The notes under the pieces: generated by a model | Told to the model about the DNA's origin: nothing | Seen by the model: only the letters and a program-made list of their open reading frames with translations | The model's database searches: none | NCBI RefSeq assembly: GCF_022385335.1 | Contig: NZ_CP092431.1 | Location: 5,766,001 to 5,830,000, forward strand | Source of the DNA: Streptomyces deccanensis | GTDB taxonomy: Bacteria > Actinomycetota > Actinomycetes > Streptomycetales > Streptomycetaceae | Reading direction: 5' to 3' | Length of the DNA: 64,000 nucleotides | Part shown: in pieces, positions 2,277 to 60,867 of the stretch | Position numbering within the stretch: the stretch's first letter is position 1 | How the letters are laid out: the number at the start of each line of letters is the position of its first letter | Position numbers and translations under genes: made by a program

Positions 2277-3044
2277 CTACCGAGGCTCCGGCGGCCGCTG
2301 CCGAGGCATGTTCGGCCGAGCCCCCGGAGGCAACGGCACCCGCCCGTTCCCCACCCCCTCCGGCCGAGCCCCGGATCCCCCCACCCGCAACCCCACCGGC
2401 GCCGCCCCCGCCCGAAACTCCACCATCCAGTCCGCCGTCTCGGCCCGCACCAACTCCGTGATGTCCTCGGAGAACCGCCGCAGCACCCCGAGGCACCGCT
2501 CCGCGGCCTCCCCGGCCGTCCCCTCCGCCGGCCCCAGCACCTCACGCGCACTCTCGGACGCCCAGTCGAACCGCAGCACCTGCAGCCGCCGCTGCACCGC
2601 CTGGGCCGTGGCGACGTCCCGCATCCACCCGGAGGTGACACCGAAGAACCGATCCACCGCCACGCACGCCACACAGGACAGCAGCGCGAGATACCCCCAG
2701 GGGGCCACCCCGCCCACCGCCCCGGTGAGGTCGAGCAACGGCAGCGCGGCCCCGACGAGCGCCCCCGTCGCCGCCCCGACCCGCAGAACCCGGGCCGCGA
2801 GCCGTTTCCACACGCGGTCCGTGAGATACCACGCGGCGGTCTCCAGCGCCGCCCGCTCGACCCAGTGGTACAGCTCCTCCAGCCGCTCCGCCGGCGCCCC
2901 CCAGTCCCCCTGCGGGAACGGCCGCCCGGCCAGATCCCCCACCCACGGTCCGGTCGCCGTCGTCCACGGCTCCGCCCACAGCCCGGACCCCTCACCCCGC
3001 CCGTCCTGGGGTCCCCCCTCGGGCTGCATCTCCGGCTGGCTCAC
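2277..3044 (-). CDS. SLATT-like two-TM protein
   Basis: A 255-aa protein read from GTG at 3044 with GGGAG upstream. After a Pro/Gly-rich head come an amphipathic helix ([21 protein letters not shown]) and two hydrophobic segments (about residues 90-112 and 117-133) separated by a short loop. Then comes [18 protein letters not shown] and a helical tail. The order helix-2TM-D(R/K)FFG-helix matches SLATT proteins, the two-TM family found with SMODS and SLOG genes in conflict systems and also as stand-alone genes. No nucleotide sensor sits beside it, so any effector role is inferred from the family. The C-terminal 40 residues are low-complexity. Confidence 0.6.
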
Positions 3045-3807: not shown

Positions 3808-4407
3808 GTGTACGAAGGCGTGGTCCAGGACCTCATCGACGAGCTGGGGCGGCTGCCCGGCGTCGGTCCCAAGAGCGCGCAGCGGATCGCCTTCCACATC
3901 CTGCAGGCGGAGCCCACGGACGTACGGCGGCTCGCGCAGGCCCTCCTTGAAGTGAAGGCGAAGGTCCGTTTCTGCGCGACCTGCGGCAACGTGGCGCAGG
4001 AGGAGCTGTGCAACATCTGCCGCGACCCGCGCCGCGACCCGTCCGTCATCTGCGTCGTCGAGGAGCCGAAGGACGTCGTCGCGATCGAGCGCACCCGCGA
4101 GTTCCGGGGCAAGTACCACGTCCTCGGCGGCGCGATCAGCCCGATCGAGGGCGTCGGCCCCGACGACCTGCGCATACGGGAGCTGCTGGCCCGCCTGGCC
4201 GACGGCACGGTCACCGAGCTGATCCTCGCCACGGACCCGAACCTGGAGGGCGAGGCCACGGCCACGTACCTCGCCCGCATGATCAAACCCATGGGCCTCA
4301 AGGTCACCCGCCTGGCCAGCGGCCTCCCGGTGGGCGGCGACCTGGAATACGCGGACGAGGTGACCCTCGGCCGCGCCTTCGAGGGGAGACGATTGCTGGA
4401 TGTCTGA
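3808..4407 (+). CDS. recR: Recombination protein RecR
   Basis: A 199-aa protein, the usual RecR length. A helix-hairpin-helix ([17 protein letters not shown]) is followed by a four-cysteine zinc finger (C-x2-C at FCATCGN and C-x2-C at LCNICRD). Then comes a Toprim domain with [12 protein letters not shown] and [18 protein letters not shown]. RecR works with RecF and RecO to load RecA at gaps and ends. The start GTG 3808 fits the conserved N-terminus [18 protein letters not shown], with AGGAAGGA upstream. The 3' end overlaps the next gene by 8 bases. Confidence 0.96.
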
Positions 4408-5065
4408 CGCCACGCTGCACGCGACGGACCTGAACCCGGACGACTTCGCGGTCCAGATCGCGGACCAGATCGAGAGCTTCCTGGTCGCCGTCACCGAGGT
4501 CGCCAAGGGTGACGAGCCGGACTCGGCCGTCCCCTTCCTCCTGCTGGAGGTCTCCCAGCTGCTGCTGGCGGGCGGTCGCCTCGGCGCGCACGAGGACATC
4601 GTGCCGGACGAGCGTTACGAGCCCGACCCGGGTTTCGAGCCGGACGTGGACGAGCTGCGCGAACGCCTCGCCGTGATGCTCGACCCGGTCGACGTCTACT
4701 CCGAGGTCTTCGACCCGTACGAGCCCCGCAAGGCGCCGGTCCCGGCCCGGATCTCCGACGACCTCGCCGACGTCATCGCCGACCTGCGCCACGGCATGGT
4801 CCACTACCGCGCGGGCCGCACCACCGAGGCCCTGTGGTGGTGGCAGTTCTCCTACTTCTCCAACTGGGGCTCCACCGCCTCGGCGACCCTCCGGGCCCTC
4901 CAGTCCCTCGTCGCCCACGTCCGCCTCAACCAGCCCCTCGCCGAACTGGACGGCCTCGACACCGACCAGGAACTGATGGGCGACGAGACCCTGGAGTTCG
5001 AGGCGGGCCAGGTCATGGCGGAGGAGATCGCGGGGCCGCTGGGGCTGGGCAGGAAGGTCAAGTAG
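4400..5065 (+). CDS. DUF5063 domain protein
   Basis: A 221-aa soluble acidic protein starting at ATG 4400, inside the recR 3' end (8-base overlap), so it is translationally coupled to recR. It has the conserved block [20 protein letters not shown] and [12 protein letters not shown] of the DUF5063 family. That family follows recR in many Streptomyces, but its function is unknown. No metal or nucleotide motif stands out. The co-conservation with ybaB-recR suggests a link to DNA repair or nucleoid upkeep; this is inference only. Confidence 0.85.
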
Positions 5066-33198: not shown

Positions 33199-36100
33199 TC
33201 AGGCACCCTCGCACGGCGGCTCGTACGACAGCCGCGGCAAGTACTCGTCCCACTTCTCCCGCGTGAGCACCCCGCGCGTCGTCGAGCAGATGTGCCGTAC
33301 GGCGTCGTCGACATCGAGATTCCACAGCCGTACGGTGTCGGCGCCGCTGGAGACCCCGAGCATGTCGCTGTCCGGGCTGAAGGACAGGAACTGGCCCGTC
33401 TTGGCGTTGGGGCTCATCGCCCGGCCGATGGGGGAGGCCTCGGCGGGGCGGGACACGTCCCAGAGGTGGACGGTGCTGTCGTTGCCGCCGCTGGCCAGGG
33501 TCTCGCCGTCCGGGCTGAAGGTCAGCGAGACGACCGTCTCGGTGTGGCCGACGAGCGGGGCGCCCAGGCGTGTCGCCTCGCGCGGGTCGGAGACGTCCCA
33601 GAGCCGGACCGTGTCGTCGCCACCGCCGCTGGCCAGCGTCCGGCCGTCCGGGCTGTAGACGAGGTCGCTGACCGCGCCGCGGTGAGCGGTGAGCGGCCCG
33701 TCGAGACGCCGGGACCGGGCCGGGTCCGCCACGTCCCAGAGCCGGATGGTGCCGTCCGCGCTGCCGCTGGCGAGCGTCCGGCCGTCCGGGCTGAAGACCA
33801 GGGCGAGGATGTAGCCCTTGTGCCCGGTGAGGGGCTTACCGAGCGGGACGACCCGGGAGGGGTCGCGGACGTCCCACAACTGCACGTCGTGATCGCCGTA
33901 GGAGGTCGCCAGGACCCGCCCGTCCGGGCTGTACGCCTGCGCGTCCGTGTACCGGATCCGCAGCGGCAGCGGCGACCCCCGCAGGACCGGGCGGGCCGGG
34001 TCGCTGACGTCCCACAGATACAGCGCCCGGTTCCCGGCCACGATCGAGAGGATGCGCCCGTCGGGGGAGAACGACAGGGAACGGTTGCCGCTGTCCTTGA
34101 GCGTGAACGCCTTCCCCAGCAGCACGGGACGGCCGGGCTCCGCCACGTTCCACAGCCGGATCCGCCCGTCCCGCCCGGCCGTGGCCAGCACCCGCCCGTC
34201 CGGCCGGAACACCCCGTTCCGGCCGACCATGTCCGAGGTCGGCACCGACCACAGCCGCACCTTGCTGTCGCCGCTGCCGGTGGCGAGGGTCCGGCCGTCC
34301 GGGCTGAACCCCAGGGCGAACATCTCCCCGCTCGCCCCGGCCAGCGGCTCGCCGACCTGCGACGGGTAGGCGGGGTCCGCCACGTTCCACAGACTCGCCG
34401 TGCTGTCCGCGCTGGCGGCGGCGAGCGTGCTGCCGTCCGGGCTGAAGGCCACGGACCAGATGGGGCCCGTGTGCCCGGTGAGCGGCGCGCCCAGCGCACG
34501 CGCCCGGCGCGGCTCGGCCACGTCCCAGAGCCGGACGGTGTTGTCCGAACTACCGCTGGCCAGCGTCCGCCCGTCGGGACTGAAGGCCAGCGAGTGCACC
34601 AGGCTCGTATGGCCCTTGAGTACGGGGCCCACCGCGCGTGGCGCACGCGGATCGGCCACGTCCCACAGCCGGATCGTGTTGTCGTCGCCCCCGGTCGCCA
34701 GCGTCTTCCCGTCGGGCCCGAACGCGACGGCGCGTACGGGAGCGCTGTGCCCGGTGAGCGGCGCGCCGAGCTCCGTCACGTGCGCCGGGTCGCTCACGTC
34801 CCACAGCCGTACGGTGCGGTCCTCGCCCACGGACGCCAGCGTCCTCCCGTCCGGACTGAAGGCGATCAGGAAGATCGTGCCGTCGTGCCCCTCCAGTGGT
34901 GCGCCCAGCGCGCGCGGCGCACGCGGGTCCCGCACGTCCCACATACGGATCGTGCCGTCGTCGCCGGCGCTGGCGAGCGTACGGCCGTCCGGCGCGAAGA
35001 CGGCGCTGCTCACCCAACTGGTGTGCCCGGTGAGGGGCCTGCCCAGGGCCTTGGCCCGGGACGGGTCCGCCACGTCCCACAGCCGTACGGAACGGTCGTA
35101 GCTGGCGGTGGCCAGATACTTCCCGTCGGGGCTGAAGGAGGTGAGGTAGACGGCACCGCCGTGGCCGAGCAGCGGGGTGGCCAGGGGCGCGTTGACGATG
35201 GAGACGAGCCGGTTGCCGGTGCCCTCGTCGTCGGGCCGAAGATCGTGCGCCACCAGGTCGAGCTGGGCCGACAGCGACGGATCCGAGTACTGGACCCGGT
35301 CGGCCTGGGCGAGAACCTGCTCGAACACCGCGTCGTTGCGCTGCTGCCAGGCGACCACCGCCGAGCCGACAGCCACCAGGGCGAACGCCACCAGCGCCGC
35401 CACGGCACTCCGCCGGATCCGCACGGTACGCCGACGCAGCCGGACGGAGGCGGCCAGGAACTCCACGGCGCTACGGGTGAGGAAGATGCCGCCGGGGGCG
35501 TCGGGGACGGTGGGGTCTCCGGGGGCGCCGCTGGAGTTCTTGGAGCCGCCGGTGCCGTTCTTTCCCTGGGCGCCGCCCTTCGCCGCCGCTTCTCCGGGGC
35601 CTCGCTTGCCGCCGGTACTCCCGGCGTCCACGGTGGACTTGGCCCAGGTGTGCGCCTGTTCGAGCCGCGAACCCCGGTAGAGCAGCGAGGAATCGCGCCC
35701 GGAGTCCTCCCAGGCGCGGCCGTCCTCCTCCAACCGCTGCCGCAGCAGATGGTCGTTGCGGCCCTCGTCGATCCACCCGCGCAGGCGCGGCCAGGCGTGC
35801 AGCAGCGCCTCATGGGTGATCTCCACGGTCTCCGCGTCCAGCGTCAGCAGCCGGGCGCGGGCCATCGCCTCCAGCGACTCCTCGGTCTTGGCCGGGTCCG
35901 CCGAGCCGTCCGCGAGCTGCCGCCGGGTGCCACGGCGCCGGGTGGCCTGGGTGTCCTCGCCCAGCCGGACCAGCCGCAGCAACAGCAGCCGCGCCGCCGA
36001 ACGAGCCGCCGGGTCCAGCCCCGACCAGGCCCGCTCGGCGGTGGCCGCCACCGCGCCCTGGATACCGCCGGCCGCCCGATAACCGGCCAGCGTCAACCGG

Positions 36101-37638
36101 CCCGCCTTCCGCCGCTGCCATGTCACGAGCAGGGCGTGCGACAGCAACGGCAGTACGCCCGCGTCGTGCGCCCCGCGCGGCCCGTCGGCGCTCACCTCGC
36201 GCACGATCAGCTCCGCCAGCCCCGGTTCCAGCTCCAGCCCCACGGCCTTGGCCGGGCCGGTCACCGCCTCCCGCAACTCCGCCGTGGTCAACGGCCCCAG
36301 CACCATGTGCCGGTGCTGGAGGGCGTCCGCGAGTTCCGGATAGCCGAGGCACTGTTCGTAGAAGTCGGCCCGCACACCCAGTACGACGACCACGGGCGCC
36401 GACCCGCCCCCCGCCCCCGGCGTGCACGCCGCACTGAGCACCTGCACGAACGTCCGCCGGTCGGCCTCGTCGGAGGAGAGCGTGAAGGTTTCTTCGAACT
36501 GGTCGACGATCAGGACGGGGCGGGCGGGGGTGGAAGTGGGGTCAGGGATGGAGGTGGGGTCGAGGGTGGAGGTGGGGGCGAGGTCTGGGGTGGGCGTGGG
36601 GGGCGGGGTGCCCTGGGGCATGCCGCCGTCGACTTGGGCGGAGCTGTCCCTGAGGGCGTCCCTGACGGTGCTGCCGGAGCCGCTGCTGCTGTCCCCGGCC
36701 GTGCTACCCCCGGTTATGTCACCCCCGCTGCCGCCGCCCGTGGTCCCGCCGCCGTGGCGTTCGCTCAAGCGTCGCCGTGCCCACGCCGCGAAGGCCTCCC
36801 GTACGGCCTCGGCGAACATCGGCGTGCCGGGCTCGTACGCGGCGGACACGACCTGCCGCAGCTCGGGTATGTGACGGGTCAGCTCGCCGACCGGATCGGC
36901 CCCCGGCACGAGTTGGAGCACCTCGCCGCCCCTCCGCACAGCGGCAGGCCCCGCGCTCCCGGGCCTCGCGCTCCCCTGGCCGCTGTCGACTGCCAGGGCG
37001 CCGCTGCGCAGGGCGGGCACGAGCCCGGCATTGAGCAGGGAGGACTTCCCGGCGCCCGAGGCACCCACGAGCATGACCAGGCCGCCGGTGCGCCCCGCAG
37101 CGCGCAACTGCTCGACGAGCGCGTCGGTGCTCCGCTCCCGCCCGAAGAACCAGCGGGCGTCCTGCTGTCGGTACGAGGCCAGCCCCCGGTAGGGGCAGAC
37201 GCCACCGGGGAGGGGCGACCCCTCGCCGGGAGGTTGCTCGTCCATGGCGGCGCCGGCGGCCGCGGCCGCCGAGGCACCGGACGCGGTGTCCGCCGGGCGC
37301 TCCCCGGCGGGATCGGCCAAGGCCCGTTCCCAGAGCCGCTGCCACTGGGCCATGTCGTACAGCCCCTTGGACACCGGAACGGGCCGCGACCGCCGGGCCT
37401 CGGGGATCAGCACCTGCAGGACGGCGGCGAGGGCGGCGAACTGCGCGGGCACGTTCCGGGCCCGTCGCCAGTCACTGATCCGCTGGGCCGAGACCCGCAC
37501 GGGGCGCCCGCGCTCATCGACCCGCTGGAGCCGGACGACCGACTCGGAGACGCTCTTGAGGGGAGGATTGCCCGCTTCCTTGTACAGCAGCGCGAGACGT
37601 TCCGCGAAGGCCGTGCGTGCCTCTGAGCCGTGACTCAA
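33199..37638 (-). CDS. nSTAND1 NTPase with N-terminal HTH and 14 WD40 repeats
   Basis: A 1479-aa protein. Residues 1-85 form a helix-turn-helix-like domain (RVSAQRISDWRRARNVPAQF). CPYRGLASYRQQDARWFFGR leads into the nSTAND1 ATPase, with P-loop GASGAGKSS (191-199). A Thr/Pro/Gly repeat (PTPTPDLAPTSTLDPTSIPD) is inserted, and Walker B is VLIVDQFEETF. One TM lies near 770 (AVAALVAFALVAVGSAVVAW). Then come 14 WD40 blades (SPDGRTLASGS...RLWDV), enough for two seven-bladed propellers. Such proteins sense a ligand through the propellers and signal through the N-terminus, but here there is no enzyme effector. The TM between ATPase and propellers puts the blades possibly outside the membrane. Confidence 0.9.
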   Translation of the reverse strand: MSHGSEARTAFAERLALLYKEAGNPPLKSVSESVVRLQRVDERGRPVRVSAQRISDWRRARNVPAQFAALAAVLQVLIPEARRSRPVPVSKGLYDMAQWQRLWERALADPAGERPADTASGASAAAAAGAAMDEQPPGEGSPLPGGVCPYRGLASYRQQDARWFFGRERSTDALVEQLRAAGRTGGLVMLVGASGAGKSSLLNAGLVPALRSGALAVDSGQGSARPGSAGPAAVRRGGEVLQLVPGADPVGELTRHIPELRQVVSAAYEPGTPMFAEAVREAFAAWARRRLSERHGGGTTGGGSGGDITGGSTAGDSSSGSGSTVRDALRDSSAQVDGGMPQGTPPPTPTPDLAPTSTLDPTSIPDPTSTPARPVLIVDQFEETFTLSSDEADRRTFVQVLSAACTPGAGGGSAPVVVVLGVRADFYEQCLGYPELADALQHRHMVLGPLTTAELREAVTGPAKAVGLELEPGLAELIVREVSADGPRGAHDAGVLPLLSHALLVTWQRRKAGRLTLAGYRAAGGIQGAVAATAERAWSGLDPAARSAARLLLLRLVRLGEDTQATRRRGTRRQLADGSADPAKTEESLEAMARARLLTLDAETVEITHEALLHAWPRLRGWIDEGRNDHLLRQRLEEDGRAWEDSGRDSSLLYRGSRLEQAHTWAKSTVDAGSTGGKRGPGEAAAKGGAQGKNGTGGSKNSSGAPGDPTVPDAPGGIFLTRSAVEFLAASVRLRRRTVRIRRSAVAALVAFALVAVGSAVVAWQQRNDAVFEQVLAQADRVQYSDPSLSAQLDLVAHDLRPDDEGTGNRLVSIVNAPLATPLLGHGGAVYLTSFSPDGKYLATASYDRSVRLWDVADPSRAKALGRPLTGHTSWVSSAVFAPDGRTLASAGDDGTIRMWDVRDPRAPRALGAPLEGHDGTIFLIAFSPDGRTLASVGEDRTVRLWDVSDPAHVTELGAPLTGHSAPVRAVAFGPDGKTLATGGDDNTIRLWDVADPRAPRAVGPVLKGHTSLVHSLAFSPDGRTLASGSSDNTVRLWDVAEPRRARALGAPLTGHTGPIWSVAFSPDGSTLAAASADSTASLWNVADPAYPSQVGEPLAGASGEMFALGFSPDGRTLATGSGDSKVRLWSVPTSDMVGRNGVFRPDGRVLATAGRDGRIRLWNVAEPGRPVLLGKAFTLKDSGNRSLSFSPDGRILSIVAGNRALYLWDVSDPARPVLRGSPLPLRIRYTDAQAYSPDGRVLATSYGDHDVQLWDVRDPSRVVPLGKPLTGHKGYILALVFSPDGRTLASGSADGTIRLWDVADPARSRRLDGPLTAHRGAVSDLVYSPDGRTLASGGGDDTVRLWDVSDPREATRLGAPLVGHTETVVSLTFSPDGETLASGGNDSTVHLWDVSRPAEASPIGRAMSPNAKTGQFLSFSPDSDMLGVSSGADTVRLWNLDVDDAVRHICSTTRGVLTREKWDEYLPRLSYEPPCEGA

Positions 37639-38907: not shown

Positions 38908-38953
38908 GCTGTCGGGGTGGCGGGATTTGAACCCACGACCTCTTCGTCCCGAA
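38908..38953 (-). repeat. Left attachment site: 3' fragment of tRNA-Pro
   Basis: 46 bases identical to 60790-60835. It holds the acceptor 3' strand, the T arm and the 3' part of the anticodon arm. Beyond 38953 the match to the tRNA stops, so this copy is non-functional. Confidence 0.95.
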
Positions 38954-40465: not shown

Positions 40466-43069
40466 CTAGCTGGATCGGCCACTCAACATTTCACGTAGTG
40501 CTGCCCTCATCTCTCGTTCGCTTTCTTTCAGTCCGATTCCACGAAATATTCGAATGGATTCCTCGTAGTAGATCTGTGCTTGGTCGATGTCTCCTGACAT
40601 CCACTCTGCAGCCCCTAGCAAGCCGAGTGAATTAGCCTCGAAATGATGATGTGAGGTACGTCGAAAGAAGCGGCGTGCTCGATGTAGGGAGTCTCGCGCA
40701 TCCTCAATTTTTCCGGATTTCAGTTGCGTATGCCCCAAGTTCATGTAGTTGAGATGGATTCCCGCTTCGTCCTGCACTTCTCTGTAAGCAGTAAATGCCT
40801 TCTGGAAACACTCTTCGGACTTCTCTTGCTGGCCTAGCTGGCTAAGCGCTACCCCCAGCCCGGCATGTGCAGATGCTTCCTGTCTCCGGTTTCCCGAGGC
40901 GCGATGGTATGGAATGGATGCGCTGAGAGCTGCCGCTGCCTGGTGCAAGAGGCCGGATTCGCGGTATGCGGAGCCAAGGTTGGTTAGCGATGCTCCGATG
41001 TCGTTTGGGTCTCGATTCTCTCTCGAGAGTTTCACGGCGTCAATCAAGATCGGAATAGCTGCTCTGGGGCTGATATGTTGGCGAACTGCCGCACCCAGGC
41101 TGACTGTTGCGTCGCATTGCCCATCCAAGAAGCGGATCCGTTCCGCAATTGCGGCTGCTTTTCTGAGAGTTCGAATGGCATCTTCCAGCTTGCCTTGGGA
41201 GGTGAGGTTGATTCCAACGTTATTGAGAGCCCTAACCTGCCGTTCGGCGTCACGCTCTTTCCGTGCCGCCTCGTAGGCGATCTGCGCCGATTGAAGACCT
41301 TCGGTGATGCGCCCCCTTAGGTCGAGATAGACGATGAGGTGCATCGAAAGGGAATACGCGTGTTCGGTTAGATCGGCATCGCGAGCGAACCGTGCTGAAG
41401 CCTGCAAATTTGCGCACTCTAGGTCCAGCCAACTCAGGGCTTCGATAATTGACTGGAACTGTGGCGGGTTCCCCTCGGGGGTGCCGCGCAGTGTGAGGTC
41501 TGCATTTAGTGAAGCCTGGCAGTACATATCGGCTAGGCGACTGAAGGCCTGTTGGCGATCTCTGGCAGGCACCGTTGCTTCGCATTGCTCGGCAGCGAAT
41601 AGATACACAAGGTCGTGCATCCGCCATCGTGAGACAACGGAGCTGCGGGAGATGAGGCTGGCCTGACTGAGCCGGCGCAGGAGCGAGCGAGCCTGTGGGA
41701 CAGATACTCCGAGGACTGCCGAGGCAGCCTGTTCCGACATCTCGCTGCCCGGGTGGATGGAGAGTCGGCAGAAGGGGTCCCTCATAGCGCAGTCGAGGCG
41801 AGCGAGCGAGACCTGAAGGGCTGCCCGTACAGCGGTGTCCCCAAAGTGCAGGACATCGAGTCGGCTCTTCTCTTCCCTCAGTTCTGCCAGTAGCTCGTCG
41901 GTCGTGAGATCGACGTCGTCTCTTAGAATTGCTGCCGAGATGCTGAGCGCCAACGGAAGATGGCCACACAGTGTGCACAGATCATGGATCGGGTCGGGGG
42001 CGTGGAGGCGCTGGTCCTCAGATCCCAAGATCTGAGTGAGCAGGACGTTTGACTCCTCCGGGCTGAGACAGTCGAGGTTGATCGTCTCGATCCCTTCGAG
42101 CACTCCCAACCTGCTGCGAGAGGTCAATACCACGCCATGGGTTTGTGCCCTGGGGAGCAACTCGGCGACTTGAGAGAGTTCGGCTACGTTGTCGAACACC
42201 ATCAACACCGGGTTGTCAGAGGCGTCGAGGGCGTCGAGCGTTCGATGGTAGAGCGCAGCCTGGCCTTCTGCGGTACGTGGGATCTCGTCACCCGGTACGC
42301 CGAGAACTGACAGGAGAGGTCCGTACGCGATCCCGGGACTAGCCATGCGCGTGCGGTGCGCCGAGAACCCGTGCATGTCTGCGACGATCACGCCGCCAGA
42401 GAACTCTGCAGACACATCGTGGTGCCTGACCACTTGGTCCACCAAGGACGTCTTGCCGACGCCGGCCATGCCTGAGACCAGGACTCGACGTCCCATGGTG
42501 GTCAGCGTGTCCCTGATCGCCTGTTGCTCCCGCTTCCGGCCTACGAAGCGGGGCGAGGCACCGGAGGTTCCTGACAGTCGAGTGACCTGCAGTGACGCCT
42601 CGTCGATGCGTCGTTGTGACCGAGCTTCAACGAACTTATGGGTCAAGGCCAGGAACGACTGGGTGGTGTCCTCGTTCAGTTCCTGTTCCCGCGGCACAGC
42701 GATCCAGCTGGGCGCCTCCTCAGAGGACTCCAGACACTCTGTGAGGTTCGCCCAGAACAGCTGCTTTGTTGCTACGTCGAACACGACGCCCAGGACGGTC
42801 AACAGGCCGTTTTTCCAGTCGTTCGCATGACCCTCGACAGGGATAGCGTAATGATGCGCACGCTTGTACTTATTGCCGCTCTTCACCTGGATGGTGATCG
42901 CGACACCGGTTCGCTCGCCGTCCTTGGTGAGCATGACGAACAGGTCTTCCCCGTAGTCGTTGCCGCCGTCGATCTCTTGGACGATCTGATCGTGGTCTTC
43001 GAGGAGCGCGCGTAGAGCATTTACCCCCGCCCGTTCGATCCTTCTGCTCTGGGTGACCCTTCCCGACAC
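40466..43069 (-). CDS. DUF4365 nuclease-like - NB-ARC - TPR protein (NLR-like)
   Basis: An 867-aa protein from GTG 43069 behind GGGGGAA. Residues 1-150 form a DUF4365 restriction-endonuclease-like domain: EIDGGNDYGEDLFVML supplies Asp38 or Asp42, and TIQVKSG supplies the Q-x-K (61-63). FVGRKREQQAI leads to the P-loop GMAGVGKTS (200-208), then VLMVFDNV, GVVLTSRSRL and CGHLPLALSIS, which are the NB-ARC motifs. After a winged-helix part, residues about 520-860 are TPR repeats (ALNNVGINLTSQGKLEDAIR). The layout nuclease-sensor ATPase-TPR is that of NLR-type anti-phage proteins. It is cargo of the AICE. Confidence 0.88.
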   Translation of the reverse strand: MSGRVTQSRRIERAGVNALRALLEDHDQIVQEIDGGNDYGEDLFVMLTKDGERTGVAITIQVKSGNKYKRAHHYAIPVEGHANDWKNGLLTVLGVVFDVATKQLFWANLTECLESSEEAPSWIAVPREQELNEDTTQSFLALTHKFVEARSQRRIDEASLQVTRLSGTSGASPRFVGRKREQQAIRDTLTTMGRRVLVSGMAGVGKTSLVDQVVRHHDVSAEFSGGVIVADMHGFSAHRTRMASPGIAYGPLLSVLGVPGDEIPRTAEGQAALYHRTLDALDASDNPVLMVFDNVAELSQVAELLPRAQTHGVVLTSRSRLGVLEGIETINLDCLSPEESNVLLTQILGSEDQRLHAPDPIHDLCTLCGHLPLALSISAAILRDDVDLTTDELLAELREEKSRLDVLHFGDTAVRAALQVSLARLDCAMRDPFCRLSIHPGSEMSEQAASAVLGVSVPQARSLLRRLSQASLISRSSVVSRWRMHDLVYLFAAEQCEATVPARDRQQAFSRLADMYCQASLNADLTLRGTPEGNPPQFQSIIEALSWLDLECANLQASARFARDADLTEHAYSLSMHLIVYLDLRGRITEGLQSAQIAYEAARKERDAERQVRALNNVGINLTSQGKLEDAIRTLRKAAAIAERIRFLDGQCDATVSLGAAVRQHISPRAAIPILIDAVKLSRENRDPNDIGASLTNLGSAYRESGLLHQAAAALSASIPYHRASGNRRQEASAHAGLGVALSQLGQQEKSEECFQKAFTAYREVQDEAGIHLNYMNLGHTQLKSGKIEDARDSLHRARRFFRRTSHHHFEANSLGLLGAAEWMSGDIDQAQIYYEESIRIFRGIGLKESEREMRAALREMLSGRSS

Positions 43070-43319: not shown

Positions 43320-43858
43320 ATGCCGTCAGTCGTCGGACTGCTGGAACAGCACGAGCTCGCTGCTCGCCGTCGAGTCGACGGGCTGCGGGAACAGGCCGAC
43401 CGCATCCAGGCCGAACTGGCCGCGGCCGAGCGGGAATGGCAGGAGTGGGCGATTGCCCGCAAGCGGGTCGGCACGGTGCTGGCTCCGGACGGCGACAACA
43501 CCGTCGGCACGGAGGTCACTGACGATCCGCGGGATGCGGACGCGCCGCCGGACCCCGGGGATGCGGCGAAGCCGAAGTCGCAGGTGCCGGTGTGGCGCCA
43601 GGGACTGGCCTGGTCGGTGCTGTCCGTGGACTACCAGCGCATCCTCACGGCGCTCGCGGACCGGAACCGGCTCCATCAAGGGCCGCTGACCTGCCAGGAA
43701 ATGGCCGCTATGTTCGGCATGGACGTGGTGCTCGAGCACGGGTGGAGGCACTGCGCTCGAAAGCGAAACGCCTGGTCGCCCGCGGCTGGCTGGCCGAGCG
43801 GCAGCCGGGCCGGTTCACCCTCGCCCAGGGTGTGGCCGGGCAAGGCGGCGCGTCATGA
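43320..43858 (+). pseudogene. Frameshifted Streptomyces gene of unknown function
   Basis: ATG 43320 lies behind GGGAGG. The first frame reads MPSVVGLLEQHELAARRRVD, AAEREWQEWAIARKRVGTVL and GPLTCQEMAAMFGMDVV. The rest is in another frame: RVEALRSKAKRLVARGWLAE, then RQPGRFTLAQGVAGQGGAS and stop. About two extra bases at 43731-43735 break the frame. The family (coiled N-terminus, winged-helix-like end) is common in Streptomyces next to insertion sequences. It overlaps the transposase 3' end. Confidence 0.7.
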
Positions 43859-44607
43859 GCAGGGTCATCGACCAGTAGACCATCGCCTCCGCGCTGGCGG
43901 TGCGCCGCTCGAAGTCGCGCACCAGACGGCGGCTTCGCATCAGGTGGGCGAAGAGGCGCTCGACGATCCACCGCTTGGGCAGCACCACGAAGCCGCGCAT
44001 GTCATCGCTGCGTTTTACGATCGCCAGGACCAGGGCGAACGTGGCCAGGCCGTACTCGACGAGGCCGCCGGTGTAGCCGCCGTCGGCCCAGACCAGTTCC
44101 AGCCGGTGGTGCACGTCGGCGACCTGTCCGAGCAGAACCTGGGCGGCGATGCGGTCGCCGGTGTCCGCGGCCGTGACCATCACGCCCAACAGCAGGCCGA
44201 GCGTGTCGACCACGACATGCCGCTTGCGGCCGTTGATCAGTTTGCCGCCGTCGAAGCCGCGGCTGTCCGATCCGACGACGGCGTCCGCTTTGACGGACTG
44301 CGAGTCGATCACTGCGGCCGTCGGCTGCGCGTCCCGCCCCAGCTCCTCGCGGACCCTCGCACGCAACCGGTCGTGGAACTCCTTGACCAGCAAGTTGTCC
44401 CGCCAGCGGCGGAAGAATGCGTAGATGCGGTCCCACGGCGGGAAGTCGGCGGGCATCGCGCGCCACTTGATCCCGTTGTCCACGAGATACCGGATCGCAT
44501 CGAGCATGGCCCGGTGGCAATACCCCTCCGGCTAGGCCGCCCCGGCCGCGCATCCAGCCCGGCACCGGCAGCAGCGGGCGGATGACGGCCCACTCCCCGT
44601 CCGTCAT
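43815..44607 (-). pseudogene. IS5-family transposase, frameshifted
   Basis: From ATG 44607 the first frame reads MTDGEWAVIRPLLPVPGWMR then GRGG. After an extra base at about 44534 the second frame continues AMLDAIRYLVDNGIKWRAMP, FPPWDRIYAFFRRWRD, AVIDSQSVKADAVVGSDSRG (DDE Asp), VWADGGYTGG (Asp) and RWIVERLFAHLMRSRR (Glu). It is intact apart from the shift. Exact IS ends are not clear: the C-terminal residues (RPHPGRG) run into the neighbouring gene's antisense. Confidence 0.75.
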
Positions 44608-46556: not shown

Positions 46557-46871
46557 GTGGTTGACCTGGAGCGCATCCAAGCAGAGACCGTGGCGTACTT
46601 CCGAGCACTCGATGAAGCCGCCACCCAGCGGCACCACTTCCGCCACGCTGACGCGGAGGGCGGCTTCTGGTACATCGAGGCCGTACCCGACCGCGGCGAG
46701 TTGATCGTCATCAAGCAAGCCGAGCTGACTTCGGCCGGCCAGCTCTACCGGTACAGCTGGGAGCACCTGGAGGACGAACACGGCGGCCTGACAGACCAAG
46801 CGATCGACCCTGAAGAGGATCCGCTGAAGGCCATCTCGGCTGAGGAGTTCCAGCGGGTGTGGACGCGGTGA
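46557..46871 (+). CDS. Small acidic protein of unknown function
   Basis: A 104-aa protein from GTG 46557. It is acidic and aromatic-rich (EAVPDRGELIVIKQAELTSA and LYRYSWEHLEDEHGGLTDQA), with no TM, cysteine motif or known domain. It follows the previous gene by 175 bases. In other elements such small acidic proteins are immunity or anti-restriction factors; nothing here proves that. Confidence 0.55.
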   Translation: MVDLERIQAETVAYFRALDEAATQRHHFRHADAEGGFWYIEAVPDRGELIVIKQAELTSAGQLYRYSWEHLEDEHGGLTDQAIDPEEDPLKAISAEEFQRVWTR

Positions 46872-47615: not shown

Positions 47616-48101
47616 ATGACTGAATCGGAGTCGAATTCACCGGAAACGGGTGCGCTTCGCGATCAGTTCGCATTGGAGCGCTACCGATACATACTGCAAC
47701 AGATCCAAGCAGTGAACGAGAATGCCCATCGATTCCTGGCCATTTACCAGACGCTCGCTACGGCGCTGGTCGGCGCGGCCCTGGCACTCTTCGTCGGTTA
47801 CCGAAAGTGGGAATTGGCGCCGGACACTGCACGGTCCGGAGTGATTGGGTTACTGGTGCTGACCACAATGGTTGCCGCGTTCACAGCGACGTTGATTGTG
47901 GTAGGGGTAACCGCTTGGCTTGACTATCGAAACGAAGAGTGCGATATAACAGATGAATTGGTAGGGCCTGGCTTCCGTAAGCGACCTCGTCCCGGCAACC
48001 TATTGCGCTGGCATGAAACCTATATAGTTCTCTTCATTATTTTTTCCGTGATATTGATGTGGGCGCTTTGCGGGCTTCTCATTCTGCCTGGAATAAAATG
48101 A
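47616..48101 (+). CDS. Three-TM protein paired with the HD/Hsp90-like gene
   Basis: A 161-aa protein from ATG 47616 (GTG 47607 is possible) after AGGGTGGGGG. A short polar head (SPETGALRDQFALERYRYIL) precedes TM1 (FLAIYQTLATALVGAALALF), TM2 (IGLLVLTTMVAAFTATLIVV) and TM3 (ETYIVLFIIFSVILMWALCG). Between TM2 and TM3 is a charged loop with DYRNEECDITDELVGPGF. The helix-2TM-loop-TM form recalls SLATT-type and other membrane effectors of conflict systems. The next gene starts 104 bases on. GC content and codon use are clearly lower than in the AICE core, so the pair was probably acquired together. Confidence 0.75.
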   Translation: MTESESNSPETGALRDQFALERYRYILQQIQAVNENAHRFLAIYQTLATALVGAALALFVGYRKWELAPDTARSGVIGLLVLTTMVAAFTATLIVVGVTAWLDYRNEECDITDELVGPGFRKRPRPGNLLRWHETYIVLFIIFSVILMWALCGLLILPGIK

Positions 48102-48204
48102 TGTAGCGAGGGGGCAATATGATGGCTGCACCTCTTCGCTTCTGAGCTGCTATCCAGATTAATGATGAAACCGGACCGGTAATCACCGAATCGGAGGTCA
48201 AGCG

Positions 48205-50910
48205 ATGAATTACGAGGAGACTCGATTTTGGAGATTCTTCAGTGAACAGACCGGGGTGCAGGCACAGAGTGAGGCGGCGCAACTTGCAGAGCAGTTCAGA
48301 AGTAGCCGCAAAAGAGCTGCACTGATCGCTGCAGAAATTAGTCGCGATTCTGCAGATCTAACACAGCACGACATATCCCATATCGACGCACTCTGGGAGT
48401 ATGCCGAGCTAGTTTGCGGACCTGAGTACGTGCTAAACCCCGCCGAGGTCTACGTCCTGGGTATTGCCTTCCTTGCGCATGATCTAGCAAATGGGATGGC
48501 GGCCATTCCAGGAGGAATTGAGCAGATAAGGGAAGACGTGCGGTGGTTGGATATCTTGACGTCAGAGTATCGGGCGGAGAATGGTTCTTATCCTTCACCC
48601 GATGAACTTGTTGAGCCGGATCCCAGGGTTGAATCCCGAGCGGTCTCGCGTTACCTCCGAGAGACGCATGCTGACTACGCTGCACGTATTCCCTTGGCTC
48701 CATACAAAGACACAGCTACCGGCGAATCATTCTATCTGCTGGAAGACGCTGAGCTACGCAACCAATATGGACACCTAGCCGGTCGCATCGCTGCGAGCCA
48801 TTGGTGGCCTTCAAAAATGTTGCGTCAGGAATTCGGTGTGAGAATTGGCGCGCGGGCGAGTATGCCTAGTTCGTGGGAAGTAGACCCTCTCGCGCTTGCG
48901 TGTATTCTCCGATGCGCAGATGCCAGTCATTTGGATTCCCGCAGGGCGCCTGCCTTCTTGCGTGCAGTACGGAGGCCAGGCGTCGCATCTATGCCGCATT
49001 GGGTTTTCCAGGACAAGCTTCAGAAGCCGCGTATCCATGATGATCGATTGTCTTACACCAGCTTGAGCCCATTTGGTCGGGATGAATCCGAAGCCTGGTG
49101 GGTTTGCCACGACGCGCTCTCAACCCTGCATCACGAACTTACCGCAGCCGATAACATTCTTTCGGACTCAGGAAGGAGTCGGTTTTCTGCGCGAGGCGTA
49201 TTAGGCATTAGTGACCTGGAGGAGCTGTCCCGGAACATTCGGACCGATGGCTGGCACCCGATCGACGCCACGATTAAGGCTACGGATGTAATTACTCTCG
49301 TCCGTCGCCTAGGGGGCGCAGAACTGTACGGTAATGATCCATCTGCTCCCATTCGTGAATTGATCAGTAATGCTACTGACGCTGTGCGGGCCAAAAAATC
49401 TCTACTCGTTGCATCCGGAGCGCGCCCCTGGGAAATTACTGGGGACGTTACCGTGTCGCTAAGTGATGACACGCACGGGACTTGGCTCCATGTTCACGAC
49501 ACAGGTCTTGGCATGTCAAAGAACGTCCTAACGAACGCGTTGCTGAACTTCGGCACGTCTTATTGGGACTCCCCTAACTCGCGACGAGATCTCCCGGGTC
49601 TTTTGTCATCTGGATTTCGCCCTACGGGACAGTATGGTATTGGTTTCTTTTCCGTATTCATGATTGGTCGCTCGGTCAACGTAATTACTCGACGCTACGA
49701 CGCTGCCGCGAGCGAGACAATGGTACTTGAGTTCGCTAACGGGCTGACCGGACGTCCCATGTTGAGGAATGCCGAAGTTCATGAGCAGCTAATGGCGGGT
49801 GGTACCGAAGTTAGAGTGCTACTAAATACGGAGCTGGCCGAAATTTTGACCGTCGATTCTAGTAGAAACGGATCCGGTCGCCCGCTGACTCTGGCGCAGT
49901 ATTGCGCTTGGCTTTGCCCTGCGTTGGATGTAAACCTCTACGTGGTGAACGAAGTTGGGGAGCGCGTTCTCGCTGTAGAGGCAGATGACTGGAAACTTCT
50001 CGAACGAGACCAGCTTATTGATCGGCTGTATGCAGACCGTAAATCAAGCGTGCGCGATAGATATAAGGAGGCGATCAATGGCGACCTGAAACCTGTTTAC
50101 TCGCCTCAGGGGGAAATGGTGGCGCGGATGGCCGTCGCTCCCACTATTAGTGTCACCGACTTCCACGAGTATCCCGACTCGGATGACGTCAGAGGAACTG
50201 AATGGCTTTCTATTGATGCTCCAGTTGTGGTCGGAGGCGTGCGCGCCAAAACAGGTTTGCAAGGTTTTGCAGGTCTCGTAGTTGGTACGACGCTCCGGGC
50301 AGCACGCGATGTTGCGATTCCCGTTATATCTGCACAAGATTTTTCTACTTGGGCCACCGAGCAGGCTAAGCTGTGGCATCCTTCATGGGATCACCAAATT
50401 CAAAACACCAGCGCTAGTTTGGTGTCGCTTCATGCTGAGCCGGGAAACATGCCAGTAGCTGAAACGGTAGCCGGTGAGGTGACATATGAAAAACTGGTAG
50501 AACACTGCGAAAGACTTTCTCGCGTTATTCTGTTGCAAGATGCCGCCTGGTCTAATTACTGCAGACGGAATGCAGGTCAGCACAGCCTTCGAGAAAACGT
50601 TATCCTTATGGATCCAGGATACGCCTCGGTCTTGAGTGGAGGTCGTGGCCCATACAATGGGCGCGATTTTGTTTTTTACGATTGGGCTGGACACTTTCGC
50701 AATGAAAATGTTGTAGCATCGAACTCGATGGCAGGCGTCATTATTCGAGCTGTAGCTCAAGCATGGAATATCGATGAAGTGGAACTCCACTCAATCTATA
50801 CTCGGCGAGAAGACGACGACAGGCAAATCGAGGATGTCGGGGTAAGTGAAGAGGGTGGCATTACCAAGAATGTGAGACTCTCGGTTGTGGCAGTTTTCTC
50901 GCGAGAATAG
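48205..50910 (+). CDS. HD-CE-like hydrolase fused to an Hsp90-like (GHKL) ATPase
   Basis: A 901-aa protein from ATG 48205. The N-terminal HD-type domain shows HDISH (55-59), FLAHDLANG (His92, Asp93), GHLAGRIAASHWW and LRCADASHLD, the metal-binding set of HD phosphohydrolases. A GHKL ATPase follows: IRELISNATDAV (Glu385, Asn389, Asp392), VHDTGLGMS (Asp432), GQYGIGFFSVFMIG (475 on) and GGTEVRVLL. The 300-residue tail has no domain that I know. Proteins joining HD and Hsp90-like modules are predicted in bacterial conflict systems. All catalytic residues are present, so it is likely active. Its lower GC marks recent arrival. Confidence 0.85.
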   Translation: MNYEETRFWRFFSEQTGVQAQSEAAQLAEQFRSSRKRAALIAAEISRDSADLTQHDISHIDALWEYAELVCGPEYVLNPAEVYVLGIAFLAHDLANGMAAIPGGIEQIREDVRWLDILTSEYRAENGSYPSPDELVEPDPRVESRAVSRYLRETHADYAARIPLAPYKDTATGESFYLLEDAELRNQYGHLAGRIAASHWWPSKMLRQEFGVRIGARASMPSSWEVDPLALACILRCADASHLDSRRAPAFLRAVRRPGVASMPHWVFQDKLQKPRIHDDRLSYTSLSPFGRDESEAWWVCHDALSTLHHELTAADNILSDSGRSRFSARGVLGISDLEELSRNIRTDGWHPIDATIKATDVITLVRRLGGAELYGNDPSAPIRELISNATDAVRAKKSLLVASGARPWEITGDVTVSLSDDTHGTWLHVHDTGLGMSKNVLTNALLNFGTSYWDSPNSRRDLPGLLSSGFRPTGQYGIGFFSVFMIGRSVNVITRRYDAAASETMVLEFANGLTGRPMLRNAEVHEQLMAGGTEVRVLLNTELAEILTVDSSRNGSGRPLTLAQYCAWLCPALDVNLYVVNEVGERVLAVEADDWKLLERDQLIDRLYADRKSSVRDRYKEAINGDLKPVYSPQGEMVARMAVAPTISVTDFHEYPDSDDVRGTEWLSIDAPVVVGGVRAKTGLQGFAGLVVGTTLRAARDVAIPVISAQDFSTWATEQAKLWHPSWDHQIQNTSASLVSLHAEPGNMPVAETVAGEVTYEKLVEHCERLSRVILLQDAAWSNYCRRNAGQHSLRENVILMDPGYASVLSGGRGPYNGRDFVFYDWAGHFRNENVVASNSMAGVIIRAVAQAWNIDEVELHSIYTRREDDDRQIEDVGVSEEGGITKNVRLSVVAVFSRE

Positions 50911-54987: not shown

Positions 54988-56355
54988 ATGACCGATTCCG
55001 TCTGGACACTGATCCTGGTGCTGCTGGCACTGGCCGCGCTGCTCATAATGCGTCGACGGACGCCGGTCCTGTTCTGGTGGCTCATCGGGTACCCGGTCAT
55101 CGCCCTGCGCGTGCTCACCTCGTACCGGGCGACCATGGACGCCTGCGGCCTGACGGTTCCGGCTTCGGCCGTCCGTCGGGCCACGGCCCGGATGATCGGG
55201 CGGGAAGCGGCCCCGGTGCCGCCCCGGCGGTCGCTTCCACGTCCTACCGGGTCCGGCCTCGTGATGCAGTTGCGCATGGCGGCCGGGCAGGCGCCCGAAG
55301 ACTTCACCGCCTCGGCCGACCGGCTACGGCATGCCTGGGGTGCGCACGCCGTGCACATCCGCCCCACCAAGCCGGGACGGCTCGAACTGCGCCTGATCGG
55401 CTGGGACGTGCTCTCCGACGTACGCCCTGCCCGCCGCTGGCGGGGGAGTGGACCGCTCACCCTCCCGCTGGCGCTGCGTGAAGACGGGCACTGGCACGTA
55501 CGGGACTTCCGCACCGTGCCGCACGAACTGATCCTCGGTGCCACGCAGTCCGGCAAGTCCGTGTACCTGCGCAACCTGCTGTGCGGACTGGCCCGGCAAC
55601 CGGTCGCCCTCGTCGGCATCGACTGCAAGTGGGGTGTCGAACTGGCGCCGTTCGCGCCCCGGCTGTCGGCCCTCGCCGACACCTCGGACCGTGCGAACGA
55701 CATCCTTGACGCTCTGCTGGAGGAGATGGAGGCGCGGTTCCGGCTTATTGGCCTGTCGAGCGTGGCCGGTCCTGACGCCGTGCTCACCTCCGACGTGTGG
55801 GGGCTGCCGGACGAAGTGCGGCCGGTGCCGGTCGTGGTCGTCGTCGACGAGGTCGCGGAACTCTTCCTCGCCGCGAGCCGCGACGACGAGAAACGACGCG
55901 ACGCCATGGTCACCAAGCTCATCCGCCTCGCCCAGCTCGGCCGCGCGGCCGGCATCTACCTGGAAGTCTGCGGGCAGCGCTTCGGCTCCGAACTCGGCAA
56001 GGGCGCCACCATGCTCCGCGCTCAGCTCACCGGCCGTGTCTGTCACCGCGTCAACGACGAGACTTCGGCGAACATGGCGCTCGCTGACATCGCCCCCGAA
56101 GCGGCCTTGGCCGCCACGTCCATCCCGGCCGAACGCCCCGGCATCGCGGTTGTCGGCGACGCCTCCGGCGGCTGGTCCCGCGTCCGCTCTCCCCACCTCA
56201 CTCTCGACGAAGCAGCGGCAATCTGCCGCGACACCTCCGGCCTCGTCCCGGACCTGCCCCGGCTCGCCGCCTTCCGGCCCGCCGTCGCGGCGACGCCCAT
56301 CGAGTCGACGCCGTCCCCCGCTACCGCACCCGCCGCACGGCCGGTCGCCGAGTAG
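54988..56355 (+). CDS. FtsK/SpoIIIE-type DNA translocase (TraSA-like)
   Basis: A 455-aa protein from ATG 54988, 5 bases after the previous stop. Two TM segments (about 4-21 and 26-45) anchor it. The motor has P-loop LGATQSGKSVYLRNLLCGL, Walker B PVVVVVDEVAELFLA and the RLAQLGRAAGIYLEVCGQRF stretch. This is the single protein that moves double-stranded AICE DNA between hyphae. The C-terminus (ATPIESTPSPATAPAARP) is Pro/Ala-rich, where relatives carry a DNA-binding winged helix; none is obvious. Confidence 0.93.
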   Translation: MTDSVWTLILVLLALAALLIMRRRTPVLFWWLIGYPVIALRVLTSYRATMDACGLTVPASAVRRATARMIGREAAPVPPRRSLPRPTGSGLVMQLRMAAGQAPEDFTASADRLRHAWGAHAVHIRPTKPGRLELRLIGWDVLSDVRPARRWRGSGPLTLPLALREDGHWHVRDFRTVPHELILGATQSGKSVYLRNLLCGLARQPVALVGIDCKWGVELAPFAPRLSALADTSDRANDILDALLEEMEARFRLIGLSSVAGPDAVLTSDVWGLPDEVRPVPVVVVVDEVAELFLAASRDDEKRRDAMVTKLIRLAQLGRAAGIYLEVCGQRFGSELGKGATMLRAQLTGRVCHRVNDETSANMALADIAPEAALAATSIPAERPGIAVVGDASGGWSRVRSPHLTLDEAAAICRDTSGLVPDLPRLAAFRPAVAATPIESTPSPATAPAARPVAE

Positions 56356-59344: not shown

Positions 59345-59519
59345 TGACGAACTCCTCACCGTCGCTGAGGTGATGGCCCGTCTGAGACTCGGGCGGTCCA
59401 AGGTGTACGACCTCATCCGTACGCGTCGGCTCCCCTCGGTGACCATCGGCCGGTGTCGGCGTATCCCTGCCTCCGCTCTGGGCGCTTTCATCGAGGGACA
59501 GATGGAGCGTGCGGCCTGA
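59337..59519 (+). CDS. Excisionase (Xis), MerR-like HTH
   Basis: A 60-aa protein from ATG 59337 with AAGGAGA upstream, overlapping the rep end by 8 bases. Winged-helix excisionase pattern: LLTVAEVMARLRLGRSKVYD, then LIRTRRLPSVTIGRCRRIPA. It directs the integrase toward excision. It is coupled to int by a TGATG junction. Confidence 0.93.
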   Translation: MRDDELLTVAEVMARLRLGRSKVYDLIRTRRLPSVTIGRCRRIPASALGAFIEGQMERAA

Positions 59520-60688
59520 TGTCCAAGCGTCGAAGCCGTGGTGACGGCGGCCTGCACTGGGACGAGAAGCGGCACCGGTGGATCGCTACGGCGAACCTCG
59601 GTTTCGATCCGAGCGGCAAGCGGATCGTCAAGCGGGGGAGTGGCAAGACCAAGACTGAGGCGAAGAACAAGCTCAAGGAGGTGTTGCGGGACCATGAGGA
59701 CGGTCTCGCGATCGCGCCCACCAACTACACGGTCAAGGACGCCGTGACGGACTGGCTCACGTACGGCCTAGTGGACGTCGACCCCAGCACGGTCGAGACC
59801 TGCACGTTCCTGAGCCAGAAGCACGTCATCCCGTCGCTCGGGGCCCGCAAGCTCCGTGACCTCAGCGCGGAGGACGTAGACCGCTGGCTTGCCACCAAGG
59901 CGAAGACCCTCAGCACGCGTACCCTCCAGTCGCTCCACTCTTGCCTGAACCGCGCGGTCAAACGGGCCATGGCGCGAGACAAGGTGAAGCGCAACGTCGT
60001 CGAACTCTGCTCGGTCCCCCAGGGGCAGGCGGGACGTCCGTCCAAGGCGCTCACCTTCGCTCAGGCAGAGGCTGTGCTCAAGGGCGCCGAAGGAACCTCG
60101 ATGTACGCGTACATCGTCCTCGCCCTGTTGACCGGTGCCCGCACCGAGGAGCTGCGGGCCCTCACCTGGGATCACGTCTTCCTGAAAGGACGTCCCGAAG
60201 CCAACCCGCCGCAGCCTCCGCACATCGCCGTATGGCGCTCGGTCCGGCGGACCGGGGACACCAAGACCCGGAAGTCCCGGCGCACGCTCGCCCTGCCGGC
60301 GCGCTGCGTCGAAGCCCTCTGGCAGCAATTCGAAGATCAGGGCTGGGACCGGCTCGCCGCTGACGAGAAGTGGGAGGAACACGGACTCGTCTTCTCCTCG
60401 GCCGTCGGCAAGCCCCTCGACGCGGCCAACGTCCGCCGCGCCTTCCGCCAGGCGCTCAAGGGCATCGACGGGGTCAACGCCGACGAGTGGACACCTCGGG
60501 AGCTCCGGCACAGCTTCGTGTCCCTGCTCTCCGACCGGGGCGTCCCGCTGGAGGAGATCTCGCGGCTCGTCGGGCACTCAGGTACCGCCGTCACCGAGGA
60601 GGTCTACCGTAAGCAGATCCGGCCCGTGATCCAGACTGGCGCCGTGGTCATGGACGGCATCTTTGGAGCCGCCTCGCCGGCGTCGTAG
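59519..60688 (+). CDS. int: Tyrosine integrase of the AICE
   Basis: A 389-aa protein from ATG 59519. The N-terminal AP2-like arm-binding domain (RRSRGDGGLHWDEKRHRWIA) precedes a SAM-like core-binding domain (about 70-165). The catalytic residues are Arg in LLTGARTEELRAL, His-x-x-Arg in RELRHSFVS, His in LVGHSGTAVTEEV and the nucleophile Tyr in EEVYRKQIRP. The gene lies 101 bases from the right att repeat, as usual for AICEs. It looks intact. Confidence 0.95.
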   Translation: MSKRRSRGDGGLHWDEKRHRWIATANLGFDPSGKRIVKRGSGKTKTEAKNKLKEVLRDHEDGLAIAPTNYTVKDAVTDWLTYGLVDVDPSTVETCTFLSQKHVIPSLGARKLRDLSAEDVDRWLATKAKTLSTRTLQSLHSCLNRAVKRAMARDKVKRNVVELCSVPQGQAGRPSKALTFAQAEAVLKGAEGTSMYAYIVLALLTGARTEELRALTWDHVFLKGRPEANPPQPPHIAVWRSVRRTGDTKTRKSRRTLALPARCVEALWQQFEDQGWDRLAADEKWEEHGLVFSSAVGKPLDAANVRRAFRQALKGIDGVNADEWTPRELRHSFVSLLSDRGVPLEEISRLVGHSGTAVTEEVYRKQIRPVIQTGAVVMDGIFGAASPAS

Positions 60689-60789: not shown

Positions 60790-60835
60790 GCTGTCGGGGT
60801 GGCGGGATTTGAACCCACGACCTCTTCGTCCCGAA
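60790..60835 (-). repeat. Right attachment site within tRNA-Pro
   Basis: 46 bases identical to 38908-38953, covering the 3' half of the intact tRNA-Pro gene. Confidence 0.95.
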
Positions 60836-60867
60836 CGAAGCGCGCTGCCAAGCTGCGCTACACCCCG
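60794..60867 (-). tRNA. tRNA-Pro(CGG)
   Basis: 74 bases on the minus strand. Acceptor CGGGGTG pairs with CACCCCG, discriminator A. The anticodon arm is CTTCG-TTCGGGA-CGAAG, giving anticodon CGG. The T arm contains GGGTTCAAATCCC. No CCA is encoded. The element's right end restores its 3' half, so the gene stays functional. Confidence 0.96.

Follow-up and report, generated by a model that had tools for sequence, protein, structure and literature searches.

A three-transmembrane protein gene linked to an HD-CE/Hsp90-like ATPase gene on an integrative element of Streptomyces deccanensis: a candidate two-gene defence module

Two neighbouring genes in a 64,000-nucleotide stretch of the Streptomyces deccanensis chromosome (contig NZ_CP092431.1, positions 5,766,001 to 5,830,000; hereafter, the window) raise the question of whether a small membrane protein and a large two-domain enzyme work together and, if so, for what purpose. 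A preliminary description made from the sequence had proposed that they form a defence system. Both open reading frames (ORFs) that it placed at 47616..50910 are present, on the same strand and separated by 103 bp, and their features are as follows.

47616..48101 (+): gene of the three-transmembrane (3-TM) partner protein; ORF of 161 amino acids (aa), ATG start, frame open from 47607
48205..50910 (+): gene of the HD-CE plus Hsp90-like ATPase protein; 901-aa ORF, PF24391 E 4e-47, PF13589 E 3e-9
48355..49143 (+): HD-CE hydrolase domain, residues 51-313; metal-type residues H55, D56, H59, H92, D93, H155, H199 and D239
49276..50772 (+): Hsp90 N-domain ATPase plus middle-like domain, residues 358-856

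The large protein joins two recognizable modules, as its Pfam matches to HD-CE (PF24391; 161.5 bits against a cut-off of 27) and to HATPase_c_3 (PF13589; residues 383-510, above the cut-off) indicate. The HD and GHKL motif sets, previously described as complete, are indeed found at the residues given for them: HDISH (H55, D56, H59), FLAHDLANG (H92, D93) and CADASHLD (D239) in the hydrolase, and ELISNATDAV (E385, N389, D392), HDTGLGMS (D432, G434, G436) and GQYGIG (G478, G480) in the ATPase. Their key residues are the same in all 27 sequences of an alignment that contains the query, and all eight metal- or catalytic-type residues of the HD domain, H155 and H199 among them, are unchanged in the same 27. 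In a structure model (pLDDT 85, pTM 0.78), residues 358-856 match the fold of the Hsp90 N and middle (N+M) domains, and an HHalign comparison with two HtpG proteins gives a probability of 99.2% over 201 columns, with the sequence profile alignment ending at residue 579. The 300-residue tail, for which structure prediction had been recommended, looks Hsp90-middle-like in the model; R701, an arginine in 25 of the 27 aligned sequences, is a candidate for the catalytic arginine of this middle domain. Among the matches listed, structural similarity ends by residue 877 at the latest, with no match to an Hsp90 C-terminal domain, and the closest named relatives are from Streptomyces. The NCBIfam HtpG model scores 56.7 bits, below its cut-off of 371. 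At least 772 relatives (E <= 1e-3) occur in the protein database, where sequences come without gene context. The PADLOC profile of UG24, a defence reverse transcriptase, matches the HD-CE part (residues 74-249) of a related large protein, that of locus L036, with an E-value of 3e-5.

The small protein belongs to a family for which searches of Pfam, NCBIfam and PADLOC yielded neither a name nor a model, and it has no Pfam match above cut-off. It contains three hydrophobic segments (approximately residues 41-61, 73-99 and 135-157), and alignments reveal a family hallmark, ERY...WxDYRxEE...R...WxE, lying mostly on the presumed cytosolic side. Its structure model reaches a pLDDT of 84. No SLATT profile appeared among its Pfam matches up to E 1.

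The association between the two genes was examined in 392 genomes of the same genus, with thresholds of E <= 1e-30 for the large protein and E <= 1e-10 for the 3-TM protein. The former was detected in 10 genomes and the latter in 11, all 10 being common to both, and the two genes adjoin in every genome that has both (10/10). Under independence, the probability of such an overlap is 5e-19, a value that is overstated, as the genomes are related. In the eleventh genome (G031), as well as at a second copy in G217, the 3-TM gene lies beside an HD-CE/Hsp90 protein of 1022-1030 aa, which had fallen below the threshold of the first large-protein search. Thus, all twelve 3-TM genes in the 392 genomes have an HD-CE/Hsp90 neighbour, one of them truncated, and at E <= 1e-10 none was seen away from such a gene. 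A further pair, in Streptomyces sp. AcH 505, was the sole relative confirmed by a close-relative scan of named genomes. Damage is apparent at two of the 13 pair loci: in G009 both genes are broken, the large one being reduced to its HD part, and at G217:C70 the 3-TM gene carries an in-frame stop and the large protein is 798 aa long. The neighbour and co-occurrence check that the preliminary description had called for therefore gives, within the genus, near-perfect pairing (10/10 large genes and 12/12 3-TM genes), and the pairing is real.

A search for PF24391 in 295 same-genus genomes places this linkage in a broader setting. The domain is present in 55 of them, with strong matches (E <= 1.1e-47) at 12 loci in 11 genomes, in frames 801-1131 aa long; the E-value of the damaged G009 copy is 4.9e-31, and weaker matches, frequent in the genus, lie mostly in frames of 1300-2300 aa. 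A gene for a small membrane protein adjoins the large gene at all 12 strong loci. At 10 it is the 3-TM gene (including the copy with the stop), and at two, in G293 and G147, a SLATT_2 gene lies immediately downstream. The SLATT_2 assignment rests on Pfam matches with E-values of 8e-30 and 3e-26 and NCBIfam matches of 1e-38 (L124) and 1.5e-44 (L085). Large proteins accompanied by the 3-TM protein (L032, L036) are 54-57% identical over approximately 1015 residues to those accompanied by SLATT_2 (L124, L125), and all four are 52-53% identical to that of L085; among the large genes examined, none adjoins both partners. Since related large proteins adjoin SLATT_2 instead, the 3-TM protein appears, from these comparisons, to take the place of a SLATT partner. 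The coupling of the large protein to a small membrane protein thus stands, but it is not bound to this particular 3-TM family. Two proteins of approximately 1650-1700 aa (L126, L127) combine a caspase domain, iHD-CE (PF24401), a weak Hsp90-like match and wHTH-HSP90_Na-assoc (PF24410), with a related two-transmembrane (2-TM) protein encoded downstream, either directly or past one short ORF; we presume that the "i" of iHD-CE denotes an inactive domain.

Taken together, these features probably reflect a two-gene conflict module, most likely anti-phage and cell-sacrificing, in which an Hsp90 clamp would sense infection and govern both a membrane effector and a nucleotide-hydrolysing HD domain. The Hsp90-like N+M clamp of the cytosolic large protein would act as a sensor-switch whose variable middle region may recognize a phage-made or phage-altered protein. 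The clamp would use ATP to change shape, turning on or releasing the HD-CE domain, which is predicted to be a metal-dependent phosphohydrolase with a nucleotide substrate. Engagement of the 3-TM protein by the large protein, or by the nucleotide that it produces, would then perturb the membrane; effector is the most likely role of the 3-TM protein, and SLATT proteins would play it next to related large proteins. Infected cells may in this way be made to shut themselves down.

The control could also run in the opposite direction, with HD-CE as the killing effector, for example a deoxynucleoside triphosphate hydrolase (dNTPase) or a nuclease, and the 3-TM protein as an antitoxin-like restraint or membrane anchor. 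The invariance of the eight HD residues agrees with this arrangement, as does the Clover system (PMC12265719), in which the HD dNTPase is reported to be toxic when its accessory partner is missing, to be restrained by a product of that partner, and to lose its defensive activity upon HD mutation. Moreover, some large genes have neither the 3-TM gene nor SLATT_2 beside them in the sequence stretch available, and the 3-TM gene was never seen without a large gene (12/12). A restraint should, however, accompany its toxin everywhere, yet many loci show none, and SLATT, the exchange partner, is predicted to be an effector and not an antitoxin, SLATT_2 having been predicted in print to be pore-forming. 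We consequently regard a killing HD-CE domain as unlikely, and favour the 3-TM protein as effector.

The genetic setting of the pair bears on the same question. The surrounding element comprises the following features.

38908..38953 (no strand): left attachment repeat, 46 bp, exact repeat
60790..60835 (no strand): right attachment repeat, 46 bp, corresponding to the 3' half of the tRNA-Pro gene at 60793-60867 (minus strand)
59453..60688 (+): tyrosine integrase of the element, PF00589 E 1.7e-18
54988..56355 (+): FtsK/SpoIIIE-type transfer protein of the element, PF01580 E 2.1e-32
40466..43069 (-): DUF4365 + NB-ARC + TPR protein of STAND type, inside the same element

The 46-bp repeats bracket 21.9 kb that hold the pair, the integrase and the FtsK-type protein; with an integrase, tRNA attachment repeats and an FtsK-type transfer protein, the region has the features of an actinomycete integrative and conjugative element, and the pair is, as previously suggested, part of its cargo. 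When the outer flanks were joined (344-nt query), they matched the related genome G022 unbroken at 91% over query positions 68-275, across the junction near position 171, as expected for an empty attachment site. In several related genomes the attachment sequence is matched again over a short length, 2-70 kb away from the match at tRNA-Pro; this points to use of the site by other elements, and it may be an integration hot spot. The pair is AT-richer than its surroundings, as had been noticed; its GC content is 0.531, compared with 0.667 in the remainder of the element and 0.717 in those parts of the window that lie beyond the element. The "insertion sequence scars" placed beside the pair were confirmed for the one examined, an IS5-type DDE transposase ORF at 43815-44507. 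The DUF4365 + NB-ARC + TPR gene is a second candidate defence gene in the element, and an nSTAND1 protein with WD40 repeats (1479 aa, 33199-37638, minus strand) is encoded just outside the left attachment site. Upstream of the pair, a 104-aa protein (46557-46871, plus strand), for which no Pfam family was matched, has an 82%-identical homologue at L124 (7134-7445, minus strand), where it is encoded upstream of the SLATT-type large gene. Far from the element, near a recR-like ORF, the window encodes a SLATT_2-like protein (2280-3041, minus strand; E 4e-30 by a three-sequence profile) that is 33% identical to the SLATT_2 partner at L124; the source genome, which carries this gene, has no second HD-CE gene.

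Defence genes neighbour the large gene at some loci. PADLOC was given ten genes picked by eye (eight neighbours from five loci, one SLATT_2 partner and the SLATT-like window gene), three of which had no match. The remainder include GajA (1e-102) and GajB (6e-39) of Gabija near the pair on a Pantoea plasmid, HmaC (4e-246) near L124, TIR-NLR (6e-44) on a Zymomonas plasmid, HNH (2e-14) and PDC-S27 (3e-16) near L031, and a weak AbiEii match (5e-5) near L028. In contigs from a viral collection, the large gene adjoins or lies near a phage repressor (L046, L047, L055), an integrase (L054, L055) or an integrase fragment (L047). Directly upstream of the large gene in another such contig (L050), positions 3939-4880 (plus strand) encode a 313-aa protein that looks, by eye, cyclase-like.

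The pair is found in varied arrangements, also beyond the genus. In Nonomuraea the 3-TM gene lies downstream of the large gene with a 4-bp overlap, the order being swapped, and orientation is changed in L034, L044, L055 and L058. The Pantoea plasmid carries both genes and was found from the 3-TM side alone; a 3-TM profile built only from actinobacterial sequences recovers Pantoea (1e-21), L044 (5e-14) and L055 (1e-11), these E-values applying to the six-frame segments gathered for this analysis. With two candidates scored for each genome and a threshold of E <= 1e-30, phylum- and class-wide samples yielded the large protein in 3 of 396 and 3 of 345 genomes, respectively, counts that take in the source genome of the window. 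Both genes occur at two of the 14 viral-collection loci (L044, L055), G1041, an actinobacterial genome, has SLATT_2 beside the large gene and no 3-TM match, and L053 has a 247-aa gene with three transmembrane segments that the 3-TM profile does not match. The large gene is often without the 3-TM gene outside the genus, so the strict pair is lineage-specific. Regarding rates of change, the 3-TM proteins are more similar than the large proteins in all 55 pairings of 11 genus loci (mean identity, 75% vs 44%). Compared with the window, seven partners of 895-915 aa (AcH 505, 80% identical, was left out of these ranges) are 39-43% identical in HD, 41-44% in the ATPase and 22-25% in the middle region, which is therefore the most variable part within the kind of approximately 900 aa. 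A variable middle region and a slowly changing membrane partner fit a sensor and a host-facing effector, respectively, as well as other possible explanations.

Several observations weigh against a dedicated defence module with a membrane effector. Neither 8xMP (PF24838; 16.2 bits, cut-off 30) nor DUF2157 (27.1 bits, cut-off 32.4) matches the 3-TM protein above cut-off, its 12 bits against PADLOC PycTM (E 0.048) do not constitute a match, and its fold matches only generic helical bundles. PADLOC gave nothing better than E 0.04 for the window's two proteins, TmtA of Tiamat aligning over just 25 residues with 9.5 bits (E 0.055), and its defence hits at other loci come from genes chosen by eye with no background set. 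The 478 database relatives of the 3-TM protein (E <= 1e-3) are sequences without gene neighbours. In the sequence stretches available, no 3-TM match was present at the other 12 of 14 viral loci, which include two near-identical sets and some short contigs, nor near the large gene on the Zymomonas plasmid, the Priestia plasmid relative, G455 or G799; in the latter two the large gene is split into two frames, and G688 lies on a 3.8-kb contig, too short to count. Many relatives of the large protein have neither a 3-TM nor a SLATT_2 match in the neighbouring stretch available, and the membrane protein is thus dispensable at some loci. The preliminary description had named mostly single, chromosomal large genes as grounds for rejection; within the genus they are mostly paired, and outside it that pattern is partly found. 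For the two partners of 1022-1030 aa, identity in the middle region (29 and 24%) is no lower than in HD (22 and 24%), and at L044 and L055 it is the large protein (38 and 31%) that is better conserved than its 3-TM neighbour (26 and 23%). Lastly, residence in islands holds for the element-borne window copy but not for at least three genomes (L027, L030, L033), where a metG-like gene, recognized by eye, adjoins the pair and third-position GC is host-like (0.88-0.89).

Such chromosomal copies with host-like codon use and a metG-like neighbour, together with the Hsp90 fold itself, would suit a stress or protein-quality module free of phage conflict, in which an Hsp90-like chaperone has a nucleotide-hydrolase output and monitors the membrane through the 3-TM protein. 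Its patchy distribution (10/392), carriage on an integrative element, plasmids and viral-collection contigs, the defence neighbours at some loci and the SLATT exchange make this role improbable. Close copies mostly keep the same order, as shared descent alone would give, even for functionally unlinked passengers of the same elements. That the two genes are such passengers is nevertheless very improbable: the pair persists in L044, L055 and L058 at identities of 23-30% (3-TM) and 21-38% (large), and chromosomal, plasmid and viral-contig loci do not all share one gene order or orientation.

An anti-phage module hence remains the reading that we prefer, and the earlier view of the HD and Hsp90-like modules as predicted conflict-system parts is supported, as are element carriage and a membrane partner. 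More tentatively, the pair might represent a class of immune receptors in which the Hsp90 clamp captures a phage client in its middle domain, ATP drives the nucleotide hydrolase, and an exchangeable membrane effector opens. If so, that effector would be the 3-TM protein here and SLATT_2 or another 2-TM protein elsewhere, the 3-TM protein would be a previously unnamed family of pore-forming effectors, and Hsp90-type client recognition may serve immune sensing in bacteria.

Comparison with known systems situates the pair among named parts. Clover (PMC12265719) likewise consists of two genes with an HD hydrolase under partner control (CloA, an HD dNTPase, and CloB), but its partner is a nucleotidyltransferase, and the portion of the report available names no Hsp90 domain or membrane protein; no nucleotidyltransferase family was found by Pfam in eight window proteins (the pair and six neighbours), nor any cyclase family among those six neighbours. 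VcSduA, a Shedu protein with an N-terminal GHKL ATPase (PMC12137116), similarly unites this ATPase with an effector enzyme, both being needed for defence; that effector is a PD-(D/E)xK nuclease, and no membrane partner is described in the portion available. HtpG/Hsp90 chaperones share the N-domain ATP site and, in the model, the middle-domain fold, whereas the large protein has an HD domain in front. The SLATT_2 (PF18183) loci L124, L125 and L085 have the same order of HD-CE and Hsp90-type ATPase with an adjoining membrane gene, while the window has a 3-TM partner of another family and a large protein of approximately 900 aa, whose HD and ATPase are 22-32% identical to those of the 1022-1030-aa kind (L032, L036). 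L126 and L127 share HD-CE-type and Hsp90-like domains and a nearby small membrane gene, and differ in the additional caspase, the iHD-CE kind of HD domain and a 2-TM partner of another family. SLATT effectors (SLATT_1, SLATT_2) are also small membrane proteins beside a nucleotide-type enzyme, apparently exchangeable with the 3-TM protein, from which they differ in having two transmembrane segments instead of three and no significant sequence match. Our literature searches found no description of the HD-CE/Hsp90 and 3-TM pair and no experimental work on HD-CE. The earlier statement that no named system has this pair thus holds, within these searches, for the pair itself but not for its HD domain, HD-CE being a named Pfam family. 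The HD-CE, Hsp90-like and SLATT parts are all named families, and the kind is known computationally. What looks new is the Hsp90 N+M architecture and the 3-TM family as a SLATT equivalent, an unnamed membrane protein family tied to the named domain HD-CE, in whose close relatives SLATT fills the same partner position.

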